Assembly: GCA_001725415.1 (NCBI GenBank)
Contig: MEGH01000034.1
Span: forward strand, 47,140-111,139
Direction of reading: 5' to 3'
Source: Pseudonocardia sp. SCN 73-27
GTDB lineage: Bacteria; Actinomycetota; Actinomycetes; Mycobacteriales; Pseudonocardiaceae
DNA length: 64,000 nucleotides
The position numbers and the translations under genes were made by a program. The notes below the pieces were generated by a model. It was not told the DNA's origin, made no database searches, and saw only the letters and a list, made by a program, of their open reading frames with translations. Below are positions 40,958 to 48,672 of this stretch, piece after piece. Each line of letters opens with the position of its first letter. The stretch's first letter is position 1.

Positions 40958-42142
40958 TCATGCAGGGCGGCCGAACCGGCGCATGGCGATGGCGCCGACG
41001 ACCGGGCCGGGGGCGAGGAGCAGGAACGCGTACTGCCAGCCGACGCCGTCGGCGAGCACGGCGACGAGCTGGATGCTGACGACGGTCAGCAGGAACCCGA
41101 ACGCGGTCTGCGCTGCGAGTGCGGTGCCGACGAAGCGCGGGTCGGCGACCTCGGACAGCGACGTCGAGAAGACGCCCGAGTCTGCGATCACCGAGGCGCC
41201 CCACACCGCGCCGAACACCGCGAGGAGGACGGGGCCGCCGTTGTAGGCGAGCGGGGAGAGCAGGCAGCAGGCGCCGCTGACGACGAGCGCGGCGACGGCG
41301 GTTGGGGAGCGTCCGTAGCGGTCGGCGCCCCAGCCGCCGACGAGGCAGCCGACGGCTCCGGCGATGCCCATGGTGAGGAACACGGCGACCGCGGTGCCCG
41401 ACCCGAACCCGCTGGGCACGGCCAGCAGGAACGCCGGGATCCAGGTCCAGAGGGCGTAGAGCTCCCACATGTGCCCGAGGTAGCCGAGGGTGGCCAGGCG
41501 CGGGCCGCGCTGGGTGAACATCGTCAGGCCGTAGGCGGCGTTGCGGGTCGGGGCGGACGCGCGCAGGTGCGGGCCGGGCCGGACGAAGGCCAGCGACACG
41601 GCCGCGCCGAGGGTCCCGATCCCGGCGGCGACCCCCATGACGGTCTGCCACGGCAGCGGGCCGAACCCGGCGATGAGGTGCGGCAGCAGCGATCCGACGG
41701 TCAGCGCGGCGATCAGCAGGCCGAGCGCGCGGCCCCGCCCGGCGCTGTCCGACCACGACGCCATGACCTTCATACCGACGGGGTAGACGCCGGCGAGGAA
41801 CACGCCGGTCAGGAAGCGCAGCGGGATCGCCGCGGCGAGGCTGTCGACGAACAGCGCCAGGCAGACCGTCGTCAGCGCGGCGAGGAAGGCCGAGGCGGCG
41901 AGCAGGATGTGCGGGCGGATTCGGTCGGAGAGGTTGAGGGCCGTCGATCCCAGCGCTCCGGTGACGAACCCGAGCTGCGCGGACGCCGTCAGCCAGACCG
42001 CAGCGGCCGACGAGATGCCCCACTCCGCGCGCAGGCTCGGCACCACCGCGGACATCGAGAACCAGACCGCGAGCGCGAAGACCTGCACGAGCGCGACGAG
42101 GCGGCGCTGCCGCCGGGCGAGCACGGGTCCCGCATCGATCAT
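40958..42142 (-). CDS. MFS transporter
   Basis: The 394-residue protein has twelve hydrophobic segments and the loop 2-3 equivalent TALNLSDRIRP plus the GWGADRYGRSPTA motif of the second half, both marks of the major facilitator superfamily. It resembles the cyanate/nitrate-type and aromatic acid MFS carriers, but the substrate cannot be assigned. ATG 42142 has GGAAGGGAG upstream. It is divergent from the GAF-LytTR regulator, which may control it. Confidence 0.9.
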   Translation of the reverse strand: MIDAGPVLARRQRRLVALVQVFALAVWFSMSAVVPSLRAEWGISSAAAVWLTASAQLGFVTGALGSTALNLSDRIRPHILLAASAFLAALTTVCLALFVDSLAAAIPLRFLTGVFLAGVYPVGMKVMASWSDSAGRGRALGLLIAALTVGSLLPHLIAGFGPLPWQTVMGVAAGIGTLGAAVSLAFVRPGPHLRASAPTRNAAYGLTMFTQRGPRLATLGYLGHMWELYALWTWIPAFLLAVPSGFGSGTAVAVFLTMGIAGAVGCLVGGWGADRYGRSPTAVAALVVSGACCLLSPLAYNGGPVLLAVFGAVWGASVIADSGVFSTSLSEVADPRFVGTALAAQTAFGFLLTVVSIQLVAVLADGVGWQYAFLLLAPGPVVGAIAMRRFGRPA

Positions 42143-42464
42143 GTCCGCTCCCTTCCGGGCCCGGACCCTAATCATGAGGTTGCGCGCGGGCGTCGCGGAC
42201 CAGGCCGGGTAGGCGGAACGCGGGAACATACGGGACCGTACGGCGGCCTCCGTTCGCGGGAGGGGGCCGTTGGTAGTGGTCCCGTCGGGTGAGGAACGAA
42301 GACGCTTCGTTCGGGCTGTTGCCCTGGCCTGCCACTGGCGCGTAGACCGGACCTCGTACTCGTAGGGCGGTTGTCGGTGATCCGCTCGTGGCAGAGTCGC
42401 CCGACGGTGCGTGCGGGCCGGGCTGCGCCGGTCCGGGAGGGGACGAACCGGAGGCGGGTTCTCC
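42143..42464. other. Divergent control region with GAACGAAG-N3-CTTCGTTC palindrome
   Basis: About 322 bases between the MFS gene and the first mini-ORF of the regulator. It contains the perfect inverted repeat GAACGAAG-ACG-CTTCGTTC at 42294-42312 and several CGTT-centred half-sites. A related inverted repeat (CCGGAACG-N7-CGTTCCGG) lies after the regulator gene at 43946. Both could be binding sites of this regulator. GGAGG at 42450-42454 stands ten bases before the ATG at 42465. Confidence 0.5.
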
Positions 42465-42528
42465 ATGACCGACGGACACCGGGCATGACTCACGGACACC
42501 GGGCATGACTCACGGACACCGGGCATGA
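42465..42528 (+). repeat. Three tandem overlapping 7-codon mini-ORFs in 20-bp repeats before the regulator
   Basis: Units starting at 42465, 42485 and 42505 read ATGACYSACGGACACCGGGC, and the regulator itself starts at 42525 with a fourth diverged copy. Each unit starts with an ATG and encodes M-T-(D/H)-G-H-R-A followed by TGA. Each stop overlaps the next ATG as ATGA. The only good ribosome binding site (GGAGG, 42450) is ahead of the first unit. So ribosomes would have to terminate and restart three times to reach the regulator frame. The array probably arose by duplication of the gene's own first 20 bases. Confidence 0.9.
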
Positions 42529-43916
42529 CCGACGCACAGCGGACCATCGCCGTGCCCACGACGGGCCGGAGTTCGGTGCTGGACGCGTGGGAACGGTTCC
42601 AGCAGGGCGACGACCATGTCCGCGGGGTCCGGCCGGAGGTGGTGGTGTCGTGGCACCGCAGCCGCGAGATGTATCGGGTCGATCCGCATCTCACCGTGGC
42701 CCCGGCCGCCCATGCCGACGGCGAGCACGCGCTGGAGCACAGCGTGGTGTTCGCGGAGATGGGTGGGGTCGCGGCGGCGGCGACACGGGAGGTGGAGGGG
42801 CTCAACGGGATCGTCAGCGTCACCGACTGCACGGGCCGGGTCCTGGCGGTGTGGGGTGATCCGGCGACGCGGTTGCGGGCCGACGAGGCGAACCTGAAGC
42901 CGTGGCACTGCTGGTCGGAGTCGGCCATCGGGACGAACGGCATGGGCACGGCGTTGGAGTCGCACGGTCCGGCGCTGGTGAGCGGTCCGGAGCACTGGTG
43001 CGAGGCGTTCCACAACTGGGTCTGCGCCGGTGTCGCGGTCCGGGACGTGGTGACGCGGGAGCCGATCGCGGTCCTCAACGTGTCGTGCTGGCGGACGCCG
43101 CTGCCCCGGTCGACGGCCGGCTGGCTGGCGAACGCGGTGACCCGCGCGCAGAGCATCCTCAAGCGCCGGGCGCGCGACAGCGGTGCCGAGCTGGTGGCAG
43201 CGTTCACGCAGGCCAAGGGGCAGTCGAGCAGTCCGTTGGCGGCGGTGGACACGGCGGGCAAGGTCGTGATCGCGAACGACCCGGCGAGCGTGTTGATGGG
43301 CGTCCCGGCGTCGACACCTGCGGTGGACCCGACGGTGCGGTGGAACTCGGGCCTGCCCGACATCATCGGTGCGGCCCGGTACGCGAGCGTGCATGCGGCG
43401 CGCAATCCGGGCTGGGTCGGGTCGACCCAGGTGTTCACCCATCTCGCGGACGAACCGACGGCCGTCAGCATCCGTCCGGTGTTCCTGTCCGGCCACCTGG
43501 TGGGCAGCCTGATCGCGTTCGGGTCGTCGGACGGGGAGCGGTTGACCCCCGCCGACGGGGCGGTGCACCCACGCAACCCGGTGCGGCGCATCGTCGGTGT
43601 GCAGGACGACCGGATGGTGCTGCTGCGGCTGCCGGAGGTGTCGTTCGCGGAGTCGGACGGCAACGACGTGTGGCTGGCCACCGACGAGGGCCGGATGCGC
43701 GCCGCGACGCCGGGGCTCGACAAGCTCGACGCCGAGCTGGCGGAGTCGGGGTTCCTTCGGGTGCACCGACGATACGTCGTGAACCTCGACCGGATCCGCG
43801 AGATCGAGCGCGGACCGCGCGGCGAGATGCTGCTGGTCATGGAGGGGCGGGAGCGGGACGCGGTGCCGGTGTCGCGGCGCAACGCCCCGGCGGTCCGTCG
43901 TGCGCTCGGTATCTGA
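42525..43916 (+). CDS. GAF-type (AcoR-like N-terminus) regulator with LytTR DNA-binding domain
   Basis: The 463-residue protein has the N-terminal sensor of AcoR-like activators: VVVSWHRSREMYRVDPHL, a GAF domain with CWSESAIGTNGMGTAL (residues about 130-150), and then a second PAS-like segment from about 225. Instead of an AAA+ and Fis-type helix-turn-helix it ends in a LytTR domain (VWLATDEGRMRAATPG, GFLRVHRRYVVNLDRI). AcoR-type sensors in actinobacteria control alcohol, acetoin or alkane oxidation genes, so it is a candidate regulator for the PQQ dehydrogenase genes downstream. Translation probably depends on the mini-ORFs before it. Confidence 0.82.
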   Translation: MTDAQRTIAVPTTGRSSVLDAWERFQQGDDHVRGVRPEVVVSWHRSREMYRVDPHLTVAPAAHADGEHALEHSVVFAEMGGVAAAATREVEGLNGIVSVTDCTGRVLAVWGDPATRLRADEANLKPWHCWSESAIGTNGMGTALESHGPALVSGPEHWCEAFHNWVCAGVAVRDVVTREPIAVLNVSCWRTPLPRSTAGWLANAVTRAQSILKRRARDSGAELVAAFTQAKGQSSSPLAAVDTAGKVVIANDPASVLMGVPASTPAVDPTVRWNSGLPDIIGAARYASVHAARNPGWVGSTQVFTHLADEPTAVSIRPVFLSGHLVGSLIAFGSSDGERLTPADGAVHPRNPVRRIVGVQDDRMVLLRLPEVSFAESDGNDVWLATDEGRMRAATPGLDKLDAELAESGFLRVHRRYVVNLDRIREIERGPRGEMLLVMEGRERDAVPVSRRNAPAVRRALGI

Positions 43917-43945
43917 GCCCGGACCGGCTACGAACGGTCGCCTCC

Positions 43946-43968
43946 CCGGAACGAACGGCACGTTCCGG
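43946..43968. promoter_or_regulatory. Inverted repeat CCGGAACG-N7-CGTTCCGG, possible operator
   Basis: The arms are at 43946-43953 and 43961-43968, in the gap between the regulator and katG. The core GAACG/CGTTC is shared with the palindrome at 42294-42312 upstream of the regulator, which suggests one protein recognises both. It could also help regulate katG. Confidence 0.4.
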
Positions 43969-44041
43969 CGGTCGGACGGTGAACGCGCCGACGCCCGAGA
44001 AACCGCCGCGTAGGGTCGAATTCCCTGGCACGGCATGACCT

Positions 44042-44081
44042 GTGAGCGGCGATGGTCGCTGTAGCGACCGTCGCCGCTCAC
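44042..44081. terminator. Long hairpin between regulator and katG
   Basis: Arms of 19 bases (44042-44060 and 44063-44081) pair fully apart from one G-T wobble, with a loop of two bases. GTGAGCGGCGA pairs with TCGCCGCTCAC. No T-run follows, as is usual for actinobacterial terminators. The hairpin lies just before the ribosome binding site of katG and includes the earlier ATG of that frame. Confidence 0.65.
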
Positions 44082-44132
44082 GAGGGCCCCGCGCCCGCCC
44101 GGAACCGCTCGGAACGCGTCGGAGGGAACTTC

Positions 44133-46319
44133 GTGTCCGACACCTACGACGTCGTCGTTCGGAAACGGAATGCGGGGCGTTCCGCTCTCCCGCATCCGAC
44201 GCGGGGCGCGGCGAACCGGGAGTGGTGGCCGCACCGGCTGGACCTGTCGGTGCTCGCGGGGACCGCCGCGGCCGACCCGCTGGGCGCAGGTTTCGACTAC
44301 GGTGCCGCGTTCGAGACGCTCGACCTGGCCGAGGTGCGTCGCGACATCGAACGGGTTCTCACGACGTCGCAGCCCTGGTGGCCGGCCGACTACGGCAGCT
44401 ACGGCCCGCTCATGATCCGGATGGCCTGGCACGCGGCGGGCACCTACCGGGTGGGCGACGGCCGCGGCGGAGCACGCGGAGGGTTCCAGCGGTTCGCCCC
44501 GCAGAACAGCTGGCCCGACAACAAAGGGCTCGACAAGGCCCGCCGGCTGCTGTGGCCGGTGAAGAAGCGCTACGGCCGCGCACTGTCGTGGGCCGACCTG
44601 ATGGTCTTCGCGGGCACCGTCGCGCTGGAGAGCATGGGCCTGCCGACGCTCGGTTTCGGCGGCGGCCGCGAGGACGCCTGGGCGCCGGACACGGCCGTCG
44701 ACTGGGGGCCGGAGCACGCCTGGCTGGCCGACGAGCGGCACACCCGCGTCCGCGAGCTGGACGAGCCGCTGGCCGCGTCGGAGATGGGCCTGATCTACGT
44801 CAACCCCGAGGGCCCGCGCAGCGTCCCGGACCCGTGGCTCGCCGGCCGCGACATCCGGGAGACGTTCCGCCGCATGGGTTTCGACGACGAGGAGACGGTT
44901 GCGCTCATCGCAGGCGGGCACACGTTCGGCAAGACCCACGGTGCCGCGCACGAGCGTCATCTCGGGCCCGACCCCGAGAGTGCGCCGCTGGAGGAACAGG
45001 GCCTGGGGTGGCGCAACGACCACGGCACCGGCACCGGGCCGGACGCGATCGTGAGCAGCCTCGAGGGCATCTGGACCTCGCACCCGACCCGCTGGGACCA
45101 CGGCTACCTCGAGACCCTGTACCGCTACGACTGGGACGCGGTGCTGAGCCCGGCGGGGTTGTGGCAGTGGGTCCCGTCGAGGGGGGAGGGCGTGGGCACC
45201 GTGCCCGACGCCCACGACCCGGACGCCACCCACGTCCCGACGTTCCTCACGACCGACCTGGCCCTGCGCTACGACCCGGGCTACGAGCGGGTGTCGCGAC
45301 GCTTCCTCGACCGCCCCGACCTGCTGGCCGACGCGTTCGCGCACGCGTGGTTCAAGCTCACCCACCAGGACATGGGCCCGATCGCCTGCTACCGCGGGGC
45401 GCTGGTGCCCAGCGAGCGGATGCTGTGGCAGGACCCGGTGCCGGAGGTCGACCACGAGCTGGTCGGGCCCGACGGGATCGCGGGCCTGAAGCGGCGGATC
45501 CTCGGCAGCGGCCTCTCCGTCGCGCAGCTCGTGACCACGGCGTGGGCGTCGGCCTCGACGTTCCGCACGACCGACCGGCGGGGTGGTGCGAACGGCGCCC
45601 GGATCCGGCTGCACCCGCAGCGCGACTGGGAGGTCAACGAGCCCGACCGGCTCACCGAGGTCCTCGACGTGCTCGAACGGGTCCGGGCCGAGGCGCCGCA
45701 GCAGATCTCGCTCGCCGACCTGATCGTCCTCGGCGGGTGCACGGCAGTGGAGCAGGCCGCCGGCTGCGACGTCCCGTTCGCGCCCGGCCGGACCGACGCC
45801 ACCCAGGAGCAGACCGACGTCGTCTCGTTCGCCGCGCTCGAACCGGTCGCCGACGGGTTCCGTCAGTACCGGGGGGCGGCGTGCCGAGTGCCGCCGGAGC
45901 ACGCGCTGGTCGAGCGCGCCGCGCTGCTGGGCCTGTCGGCGCCGGAGACGGTCGTGCTGCTCGCTGGGATGCGGGTGCTCGGGGCGACCGTCGGTGGGAC
46001 GCGGCGGGGCGTGCTCACCGAGACGCCCGGCACGCTGACCACGGACTTCGTCGTCAACCTGCTCGACCCGGCCACGACGTGGACACCGGTGGACGCCGAC
46101 ACCTTCGAGGGCCGCGACCGCGACACCGGCGAGCTCCGGTGGACCGCGGGACGCGTCGACCTGGCCGTCGGCTCGAACTCCGAGCTGCGCGCGATCGCCG
46201 AGATCCACGCCGCCGACGACGCCCGGGAGACGTTCGTCGCCGACTTCGTCGCGGCCTGGGACAAGGTCATGACCCTCGACCGGTTCGACCTCAGACGAGG
46301 CCCCCGAACAGGCCGGTGA
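44133..46319 (+). CDS. katG: Catalase-peroxidase KatG
   Basis: The 728-residue heme enzyme has both KatG domains. The distal site [11 protein letters not shown] carries Arg, Trp and His. The Met-Tyr-Trp adduct residues needed for catalase activity are all present: Trp in MAWHAAG, Tyr in LIYVNPEGP and Met in [10 protein letters not shown]. The proximal histidine is in [11 protein letters not shown]. It destroys hydrogen peroxide. GTG 44133 is chosen because GGAGGG sits six bases upstream; the ATG at 44052 lies inside a stable hairpin. Its place before the quinoprotein genes may reflect peroxide formed during alcohol oxidation. No FurA gene precedes it. Confidence 0.95.
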
Positions 46320-46989: not shown

Positions 46990-48672
46990 ATGACCGTCGA
47001 TTACGTCGACGCCGGTGAGGCGATCGACCAGGGAGATCTGAGCGGCAAGCACGGAACCGCGCCGCCGGTCGTCGAGGGCGTCACCTACGAGCGCATCCTC
47101 GAGGCCCGCTCCGAGCCGGAGAACTGGCTCACCTACTACGGCGCCTACAACGGGCAACGGTTCAGCCCGCTGGACCAGATCAACACCGAGAACGTGAAGC
47201 GGATCGGTCCCGCCTGGGTGTTCCAGGCCGGGACGAGCGGCATGATCGCCGGTGCCTCGACCTACGCGTTCGAGGCAGCACCGATCGTCGTCGACGGGAT
47301 CATGTTCGTCTCCGGCTGGGACGGCTGGGTCTGGGCGCTCAACGCCGCCACCGGCAACGAGATCTGGCGCTACAAGCACGCCACCCCCTACGACGTGTCG
47401 CTGTGCTGCGGCAACGTCAACCGCGGCGTGGCCGTCGCGAAGGGGAAGGTCTTCAGCGTCACGCCGAACGCGCACCTGATCGCGCTCGACGCCAGCACCG
47501 GCAAGAAGGTCTGGGACCGCACCTACGGCGACGTGCGCGCCGGCGAGAGCGCCACGTGCGCTCCGCTGATCGTGAAGAACATGGTCATCGTGGGCAGCTC
47601 GGGCGGCGAGTTCGGCGTCCGCGGGCACCTCGACGCGTTCGACCTCGACAGCGGCGAGCACCAGTGGCGCTGCTACATGGTGCCGAAGCCCGGCGAGCCC
47701 GGCTCCGACACGTGGCCCGACGGCGAGGCCTGGACCCGGGGCGGCGGCAACTGCTGGCTGACCGGCACGTTCGACCCCGAGACCAACCTCCTCTACTGGG
47801 GCACCGGCAACCCGGCGCCCGACTTCGACGGCGAGGTGCGCGAGGGCGACAACCTCTACACCGACAGCATCGTCGCGGTCGACGCCGACGCCGGCGAGAT
47901 CCGGTGGCACTACCAGTGCACCCCGCACGACGTGTGGGACTACGACTCGATCTCCGAGTGCATCCTGTTCGAGCACGAGGGCCGCAAGCTGCTCGGACAC
48001 TTCGACAAGAACGGCTACTTCTTCGTCGTCGACCGCACCGACGGCGAGCTGGTCCGGATCACGCCGTTCGTCGACCGGATCGACTGGGGCAACATCACCC
48101 GCGACGGCAAGGTCACGCCCTCGCGGTACCCGGAGAAGGAGGGCGAGCCCGTCCACTTCTTCCCGGGCCCGGCCGGTGCCAAGGAATGGACGCACGCGGC
48201 GTACAGCCCGGAGACGGAGCTGTTCTACGTGCCGGTGCAGGACGTCGGTGCCACAGCGACGCGGCGTCGTCGCGAGTTCAAGGAGTCGATCCCGTACTGG
48301 GGCGCCGGTGTCCAGGTCGACATCGACGACATGACCGGCTACGTCAGCGCGTTCGACGCCAACGGCGACGAGAAGTGGCGCTGGCGCGGCGAGCTGCCGA
48401 TGTGCGCGTCGGTGCTGGCCACGGGTGGCGGCCTGGTGTTCGCGGGTGAGCCGACGGGCTTCTACAACGCCCTCGACGCCCGAACCGGTGAGCACCTGTG
48501 GCGGTTCCAGTGCGGCAGCGGCCACCACAGCAGCCCGGTCACCTACGGCGTCGACGGCCGGCAGTTCATCGCCGTCCCCGTCGGCTGGGGCGGCTGGGCC
48601 GAGGGCTTCCTGCCCGGGATGCTCGGCGCCGGCCACGGCAGTGCGCTGATCGTCTTCGCCCTGCCCGAGTGA
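46990..48672 (+). CDS. PQQ-dependent alcohol dehydrogenase, lanthanide type predicted
   Basis: The 560-residue protein is an eight-bladed quinoprotein dehydrogenase with repeated tryptophan-docking motifs (ALNAATGNEIWRYKH, ALDASTGKKVWDRTYGD). The vicinal-cysteine disulfide is in SLCCGNVNRG, and the PQQ-contacting YWGTGNPAP is present. The catalytic aspartate region is HDVWDYDS: the extra aspartate two residues after the first is the hallmark of lanthanide-dependent (XoxF-like) enzymes. It oxidises a primary alcohol. There is no recognisable signal peptide, which is odd since these enzymes normally work outside the cytoplasm. ATG 46990 follows GAGGAGG. Confidence 0.9.
   Translation: MTVDYVDAGEAIDQGDLSGKHGTAPPVVEGVTYERILEARSEPENWLTYYGAYNGQRFSPLDQINTENVKRIGPAWVFQAGTSGMIAGASTYAFEAAPIVVDGIMFVSGWDGWVWALNAATGNEIWRYKHATPYDVSLCCGNVNRGVAVAKGKVFSVTPNAHLIALDASTGKKVWDRTYGDVRAGESATCAPLIVKNMVIVGSSGGEFGVRGHLDAFDLDSGEHQWRCYMVPKPGEPGSDTWPDGEAWTRGGGNCWLTGTFDPETNLLYWGTGNPAPDFDGEVREGDNLYTDSIVAVDADAGEIRWHYQCTPHDVWDYDSISECILFEHEGRKLLGHFDKNGYFFVVDRTDGELVRITPFVDRIDWGNITRDGKVTPSRYPEKEGEPVHFFPGPAGAKEWTHAAYSPETELFYVPVQDVGATATRRRREFKESIPYWGAGVQVDIDDMTGYVSAFDANGDEKWRWRGELPMCASVLATGGGLVFAGEPTGFYNALDARTGEHLWRFQCGSGHHSSPVTYGVDGRQFIAVPVGWGGWAEGFLPGMLGAGHGSALIVFALPE

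Follow-up and report, generated by a model that had tools for sequence, protein, structure and literature searches.

Why should the gene of a bacterial regulator be preceded by three very short open reading frames (ORFs) that resemble its own first codons, and do ribosomes pass through them on their way to the regulator? The question arises from a 64,000-nucleotide (64-kb) stretch of Pseudonocardia sp. SCN 73-27, analyzed here as a whole and hereafter called the window.

The array and the gene that follows it

Three 20-bp units occupy positions 42465-42524 and are directly followed by the ATG of the regulator (Table 1). There is no difference between units 2 and 3, unit 1 is set apart from them by two bases, and the first bases of the regulator gene form a fourth, diverged copy. 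Every unit reads as one mini-ORF whose TGA lies inside the ATGA that comes next, and a scripted stop-to-start walk gave a chain of 7, 7 and 7 codons arriving at the regulator's ATG through three serial ATGA overlaps on the same strand. Script and sequence thus agree with a preliminary description of this DNA, which had presented the repeats as 7-codon mini-ORFs linked by ATGA up to the regulator. The array has the top Tandem Repeats Finder (TRF) score of the window (116, among 62 rows; the runner-up has 84), and its unit, searched with up to 3 mismatches, occurs at these three sites only in the 6.95-Mb draft genome. Hence, the repeat is not a product of chance. The cascade of overlaps is in turn no independent coincidence: it is automatic, since any duplication of 3n+2 bp of a gene starting with ATGA creates ATGA overlaps.

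Table 1. Features at the start of the regulator gene (positions in the window).
Feature	Position	Strand	Description	Evidence
Leader hairpin	42441..42464	+	Shine-Dalgarno GGAGG (42450-42454) in the loop	RNA fold, ortholog covariation
Mini-ORF 1	42465..42488	+	MTDGHRA; ATG, 6 sense codons, TGA; stop within ATGA at 42485	Sequence, chain script
Mini-ORF 2	42485..42508	+	MTHGHRA; ATG, 6 sense codons, TGA; stop within ATGA at 42505	Sequence, chain script
Mini-ORF 3	42505..42528	+	MTHGHRA; ATG, 6 sense codons, TGA; stop within the regulator's ATGA	Sequence, chain script
Regulator gene	42525..43916	+	463 aa, C-terminal LytTR domain	Pfam, ortholog identity

The product of the gene had been named a GAF-LytTR regulator. 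Its LytTR part is well founded (PF04397, E=3.1e-17, residues 362-461), and the evidence for its GAF part is that residues 96-175 match the DhaR model weakly, with a score far under the cut-off of that model. The protein is 90% identical to its ortholog in P. dioxanivorans CB1190, and the 463 codons show 138 synonymous and 46 nonsynonymous codon differences between the two. By this comparison, the regulator is intact and under purifying selection. The next gene downstream (44052-46319) belongs to the peroxidase family (KatG-like). Close to both lies a gene for a beta-propeller protein of the PQQ-dependent dehydrogenase type (46990-48672), a possible target of the regulator.

Origin of the array and the leader upstream of it

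To place the array in its family, we assembled 77 start regions of orthologs and paralogs, 64 of them distinct. When these were scanned by script, just one of the 64, that of the window, had an ATGA tandem array; the scan picked up, in addition, a 10-bp repeat of unrelated nature (L068). In P. dioxanivorans, the same leader is directly followed by a single ATGACCGACGGACAGCGG start. This comparison identifies the array as specific to one lineage: the regulator's opening 20 bp were duplicated in tandem, giving three extra copies. Its presence in a single start region makes it a recent local change, not a conserved control device of the regulator.

The leader is widely shared. Its core (at most 3 mismatches to GACCAAAGGCGGTC) stands ahead of the start in 48 of the 64 distinct regions; the 16 misses comprise the window (5 mismatches), some paralogs, and orthologs lacking the core. 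Since its reading frame relative to the gene varies among orthologs, the leader is conserved as nucleic acid. In the window, GAACC (42445-42449) pairs with GGTTC (42457-42461), so that the stem is intact around the loop GGAGGCG, and the pairing extends past a one-base bulge through GGA (42441-42443) and TCC (42462-42464). The predicted folding energies are very close in the window (-10.6 kcal/mol) and in P. dioxanivorans (-10.4 kcal/mol). Across 40 distinct ortholog sequences (alignment A1 without L086, whose 22-mer is the same as another), the 5-bp stem has 96.5% paired cells compared with 93.2% after shuffling, and 13 cells changed on both sides compared with 6.1; none of 500 shuffles matched either value. 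In the same alignment, there was no excess of doubly changed pairs (2, against 1.7 in shuffles; 340/500) or of further pair types (5, against 5.0; 439/500). The hairpin possibly acts in translational control; alternatively, the stem may be a dyad at the DNA level. A hairpin presenting the Shine-Dalgarno sequence before the regulator is kept in Pseudonocardia, Amycolatopsis, Kineosporia, Saccharopolyspora, and Rhodococcoides.

Other roles for the leader were considered. An Rfam scan of positions 41000-44500 gave no match. RNAs targeted by ANTAR proteins consist, according to PMC8164766, of two stem-loops with A1/G4 hexaloops separated by a linker of 2-25 nt. The ortholog loop AAAGGC fits such a hexaloop, and the loop of the window has 7 nt. 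A second A1/G4 hexaloop hairpin (at least 4 bp, at most 55 nt upstream) was found in 1 of 47 orthologs, against a shuffle mean of 3.1, which leaves an ANTAR target unsupported. The exact leader motif ACCAAAGGCGGTYYYC, a pattern that the degenerate copy of the window escapes, occurs in 10 of 62 genomes of the genus, once in each; nine of these sites are at the regulator or a paralog and one is ahead of a peroxidase gene. It is therefore not a dispersed operator of a regulon. In one genome (G042; L059 1494-1535, minus strand), the leader hairpin and first codons of the regulator precede a gene of the peroxidase (KatG-like) family, which looks like a case where the regulator was lost and its leader retained.

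The Shine-Dalgarno duplex, computed with what we take to be the tail of the 16S rRNA, reaches -11.4 kcal/mol before mini-ORF 1 and only -3.8 kcal/mol before mini-ORFs 2 and 3 and the regulator. This bears out the earlier observation that the sole good Shine-Dalgarno sequence is ahead of the first unit. For comparison, the value ahead of the P. dioxanivorans ortholog is -9.3 kcal/mol. Read against that ortholog, the ancestral initiation site is the one that now serves mini-ORF 1.

The reading that we consider rather probable is that the 20-bp duplication took place between leader and start, and that ribosomes are relayed through mini-ORFs 1, 2 and 3 to the regulator. After loading at the leader, they would read mini-ORF 1 to its stop codon, restart at the ATG that overlaps it, and repeat this step until the regulator is reached. 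The output of the regulator would be reduced, not abolished: the weak Shine-Dalgarno sites in the window predict lossy steps and a lower output. The relay into the regulator is of uncertain efficiency, because the Shine-Dalgarno sequence just before the latter is weak.

Periods of comparable arrays at gene starts

Might other genomes tell whether ribosomes use such arrays? The pattern of four ATGA with period 20 is found in 2 of 62 genomes of the genus (those of the window and of G058), and its reversed control in 3 of 62, i.e., there is no enrichment. As frequency alone is thus uninformative, we tested phase instead. We surveyed Pseudonocardiaceae genomes for three-ATGA patterns with periods of 19/20 (390 genomes), 16/17 (386), 22/23 (283), and 13/14 (287), after an earlier mixed first look at 249 genomes; the five surveys share many genomes, and the period class was fixed as the test ahead of the later ones. 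Arrays were chosen by eye for the similarity of their units, in the mixed first look and the 16/17 and 13/14 surveys among the matches listed, and were then processed by one script that was blind to period class. An array was positive when the ORF starting at its last ATG had 100 codons or more and a strong codon-position signal. Periods of 0 mod 3, which are swamped by in-frame coding repeats, are outside the comparison, and the array of the window is outside the counts of Table 2.

Some listed arrays were left out: the 17-bp repeats of G158; palindromic arrays (G071, G243:C340, G232, G018); orthologous copies (G016, G230, G155, G190, G138) and further sites of G272; 8-bp arrays (G324, G153); and weak ones (G378, G315, G099:C41, G061:C257). 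L129, L130, L164-L167, L171, and L173 were not counted separately from their orthologs or repeat family. Outside the counts are also L207 (non-tandem), L126 (mixed periods of 19 and 20), and L101-L105 (from the mixed first look).

Among the matches listed, 27 of 65 arrays with a period of 2 mod 3 have a last ATG from which a coding ORF starts, compared with 3 of 43 with a period of 1 mod 3 (Fisher P=5.9e-5; Table 2). The signal comes mostly from periods 14 and 17, with 20 and 23 contributing little on their own. A stricter rule that accounts for competing ORFs gave, among the matches listed, 26/66 versus 3/43 (P=1.3e-4), and 25/62 versus 3/41 (P=2.1e-4) when units had to be at least 70% identical. 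In the stricter run, an upstream gene ended at the first ATGA in 14 of the 26 positives in the 2 mod 3 class and in 1 of the 3 in the 1 mod 3 class. Both the window array and L100 are negative under this gene-calling rule. The former was probably missed because of a competing long antisense ORF; the start of its regulator is shown by homology.

Table 2. Positive arrays by period (among the matches listed).
Period class	Period and positives/arrays
2 mod 3	11, 1/1; 14, 15/25; 17, 9/25; 20, 1/11; 23, 1/3
1 mod 3	13, 0/14; 16, 1/10; 19, 1/10; 22, 1/9

The three positives of period 1 mod 3 are particular. L125 and L159 have exactly two units, and their first ORF therefore still ends on the ATGA of the gene; L170 is doubtful. 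All 10 downstream proteins scanned gave Pfam matches, which marks them as real proteins; nine belong to arrays of the 2 mod 3 class and the tenth to L159 (period 16). An all-against-all BLASTP of 30 downstream proteins returned a single weak pair (L169-L200). We had also considered closure of the ATGA chain as a discriminator, and dropped it: of 30 gene-start arrays, 25 have a chain that arrives at the ATG of the gene, and of 78 arrays away from gene starts, 60 have one that closes, since an array of period 1 mod 3 with two units gives a closed chain as well. As closure is seen in both settings, period class is the discriminating fact.

Stepwise growth would account for such a bias. With a period of 1 mod 3, the first unit to be added would direct ribosomes into the gene in a wrong frame; with a period of 2 mod 3, it would not. 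The period bias, a property of the sequences, suggests that ribosomes initiate at the start codons of the arrays and are relayed by termination and reinitiation.

Alternative explanations

The cascade had been proposed to control entry to the regulator. The leader and its Shine-Dalgarno sequence facing mini-ORF 1 are in favor of this, as is the bias toward period 2 mod 3. The array could also be a neutral by-product, with most ribosomes reaching the ATG of the regulator directly, by way of a leaderless or internal transcript, 70S scanning, or a weak local site, and the mini-ORFs having little effect. We regard this as unlikely, though worth taking seriously: the array is young and confined to a single lineage, and its geometry requires no selection. 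A conserved leader with a strong Shine-Dalgarno sequence immediately ahead of mini-ORF 1 argues against it, and the avoidance of period 1 mod 3 by gene-start arrays is hard to explain if the starts within arrays are ignored. An error of assembly, which the draft state of the genome (99 contigs) might suggest, is very improbable, as the units bear private differences, the array of about 80 bp fits within ordinary reads, and comparable arrays exist in closed or few-contig genomes, e.g., L148 on a 6.27-Mb contig.

The remaining explanations keep a function for the repeat and place it elsewhere. LytTR proteins bind direct repeats about two helical turns apart. The 20-bp period is about two turns, and the array could form a row of binding sites at the DNA level, e.g., for the LytTR protein that the gene itself encodes. 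We give this a low probability: orthologs have the same protein without the repeat, the unit is already accounted for, being copied from the coding start, and the genome has no second cluster of units. Control by the nascent heptapeptides MTDGHRA and MTHGHRA, for instance by stalling, would make the peptide matter and not the geometry of reinitiation. The near identity of the units (2 and 3 the same, 1 two bases off) would suit it, and yet the peptide copies the regulator's own N-terminus and the mini-ORFs of other arrays range from 4 to 13 codons, so that we lend it hardly any credence.

Relation to known systems

The relay that we favor recalls yeast GCN4, where reinitiation after serial short upstream ORFs controls a regulator gene. 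Both have serial short ORFs ahead of such a gene; GCN4 differs in relying on eukaryotic scanning and in having spaced, non-overlapping ORFs that are not tandem copies. The closest bacterial process is termination-reinitiation coupling at ATGA, the same canonical overlap found at every junction of the array. Reporter assays of this coupling in E. coli and H. volcanii (PMC6728339) showed that, of 5 E. coli pairs, 4 had less reinitiation once the Shine-Dalgarno sequence was removed. Such a sequence inside the upstream ORF is a non-obligatory feature of coupling, and the mini-ORFs of the window offer only the -3.8 kcal/mol given above. Whereas coupling normally joins one or two full-size genes, arrays of this form set tandem duplicates of 4 to 8 codons in series, and in the window the Shine-Dalgarno sequences that separate them are weak.

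Bacterial minigenes and short upstream ORFs share with the array a very short ORF just ahead of a gene. Translation of the gene is altered by them in axe-txe, in B. subtilis ycbK (two dipeptide ORFs), and in iraD, as reported in PMC8708949 and PMC5574718. These are one or two unrelated ORFs, in contrast to tandem copies that overlap each other and the gene, and that grow by units. Repeats of the heptamer TAACTGA near start codons of Beggiatoaceae, Cyanobacteria, and Bacteroidetes, with a suggested role in translation, are described in PMC4679880. They are likewise tandem and within a few nucleotides of start codons; however, they consist of one fixed 7-bp word, whereas the arrays copy the start of their own gene and are constrained by period class and ATGA. 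Searches of open-access papers returned no tandem ATGA mini-ORF arrays. Hence the earlier statement, that ATGA coupling is established and an array of this form undescribed, stands within the scope of these searches. The array form is a new version of a known type of translational coupling.

Related arrays and their persistence

A second array of the same kind is found in G058 (L106, 2292-2370), with three 20-bp units and 7-codon ORFs, flanked by histidine-kinase-like and response-regulator-like genes (named from their translations); its last short ORF apparently overlaps a GTG start. One array is present at the same junction in three species (L128/L129/L130). At another locus (L115), two ATGA-coupled 7-codon ORFs lie between two genes, and a pair of this type recurs with little change in four genomes belonging to one genus (including G230, G155, and G190; one of the four was fetched and the rest are known from the survey listing). 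The L115 units are 56% alike outside ATGA, and the pair is possibly an old, maintained relay. At each of two array junctions, an array-less relative shows a simple overlap of 4 nt, GTGA (L222) in one case and ATGA (L223) in the other; array-less orthologs came from 1 of 9 genomes searched, and for a second junction from 1 of 9 at 73% identity, with two more distant.

We tentatively propose, as a generalization that may well not hold, that tandem ATGA relays recur in high-GC actinobacteria, where start-stop junctions would duplicate, each unit of 3n+2 bp adds an ORF of 4 to 7 codons for ribosomes to cross, and the number of units is an easily mutated dial of gene dose. If so, the period bias would be a natural record of many serial reinitiations through ORFs of a few codons, and the arrays would be natural experiments on the number of serial restarts and on the minimal coupled ORF (in the arrays found, 4 to 7 codons, with series of up to six). 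Slippage that adds or removes units would give operons an evolvable and reversible setting of gene dose. The arrays would also test the need for ATGA-overlap coupling in actinobacteria, where it has rarely been measured. At the locus studied here, the output of the regulator would be below that of array-less relatives, unless the stronger Shine-Dalgarno sequence compensates.

Other repeats seen in the surveys

The surveys also returned repeats of other kinds. A 23-bp motif starting with GTCCAGATGACCAC is present in 2-3 copies shortly before a gene in five genomes (L163-L167); the gene points away in four of the five, and the motif resembles a site on DNA rather than a relay. The motif ATGACGCGGGTCCTATGACCGGATCGGTATGA (L207, 1230-1261) is conserved and non-tandem, about 35 nt before a gene, with variants in several genomes of one genus among the matches listed. 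Finally, G272 carries a dispersed 22-bp repeat starting with ATGACACGC (L170, L171), with 62 forward and 54 reverse matches.
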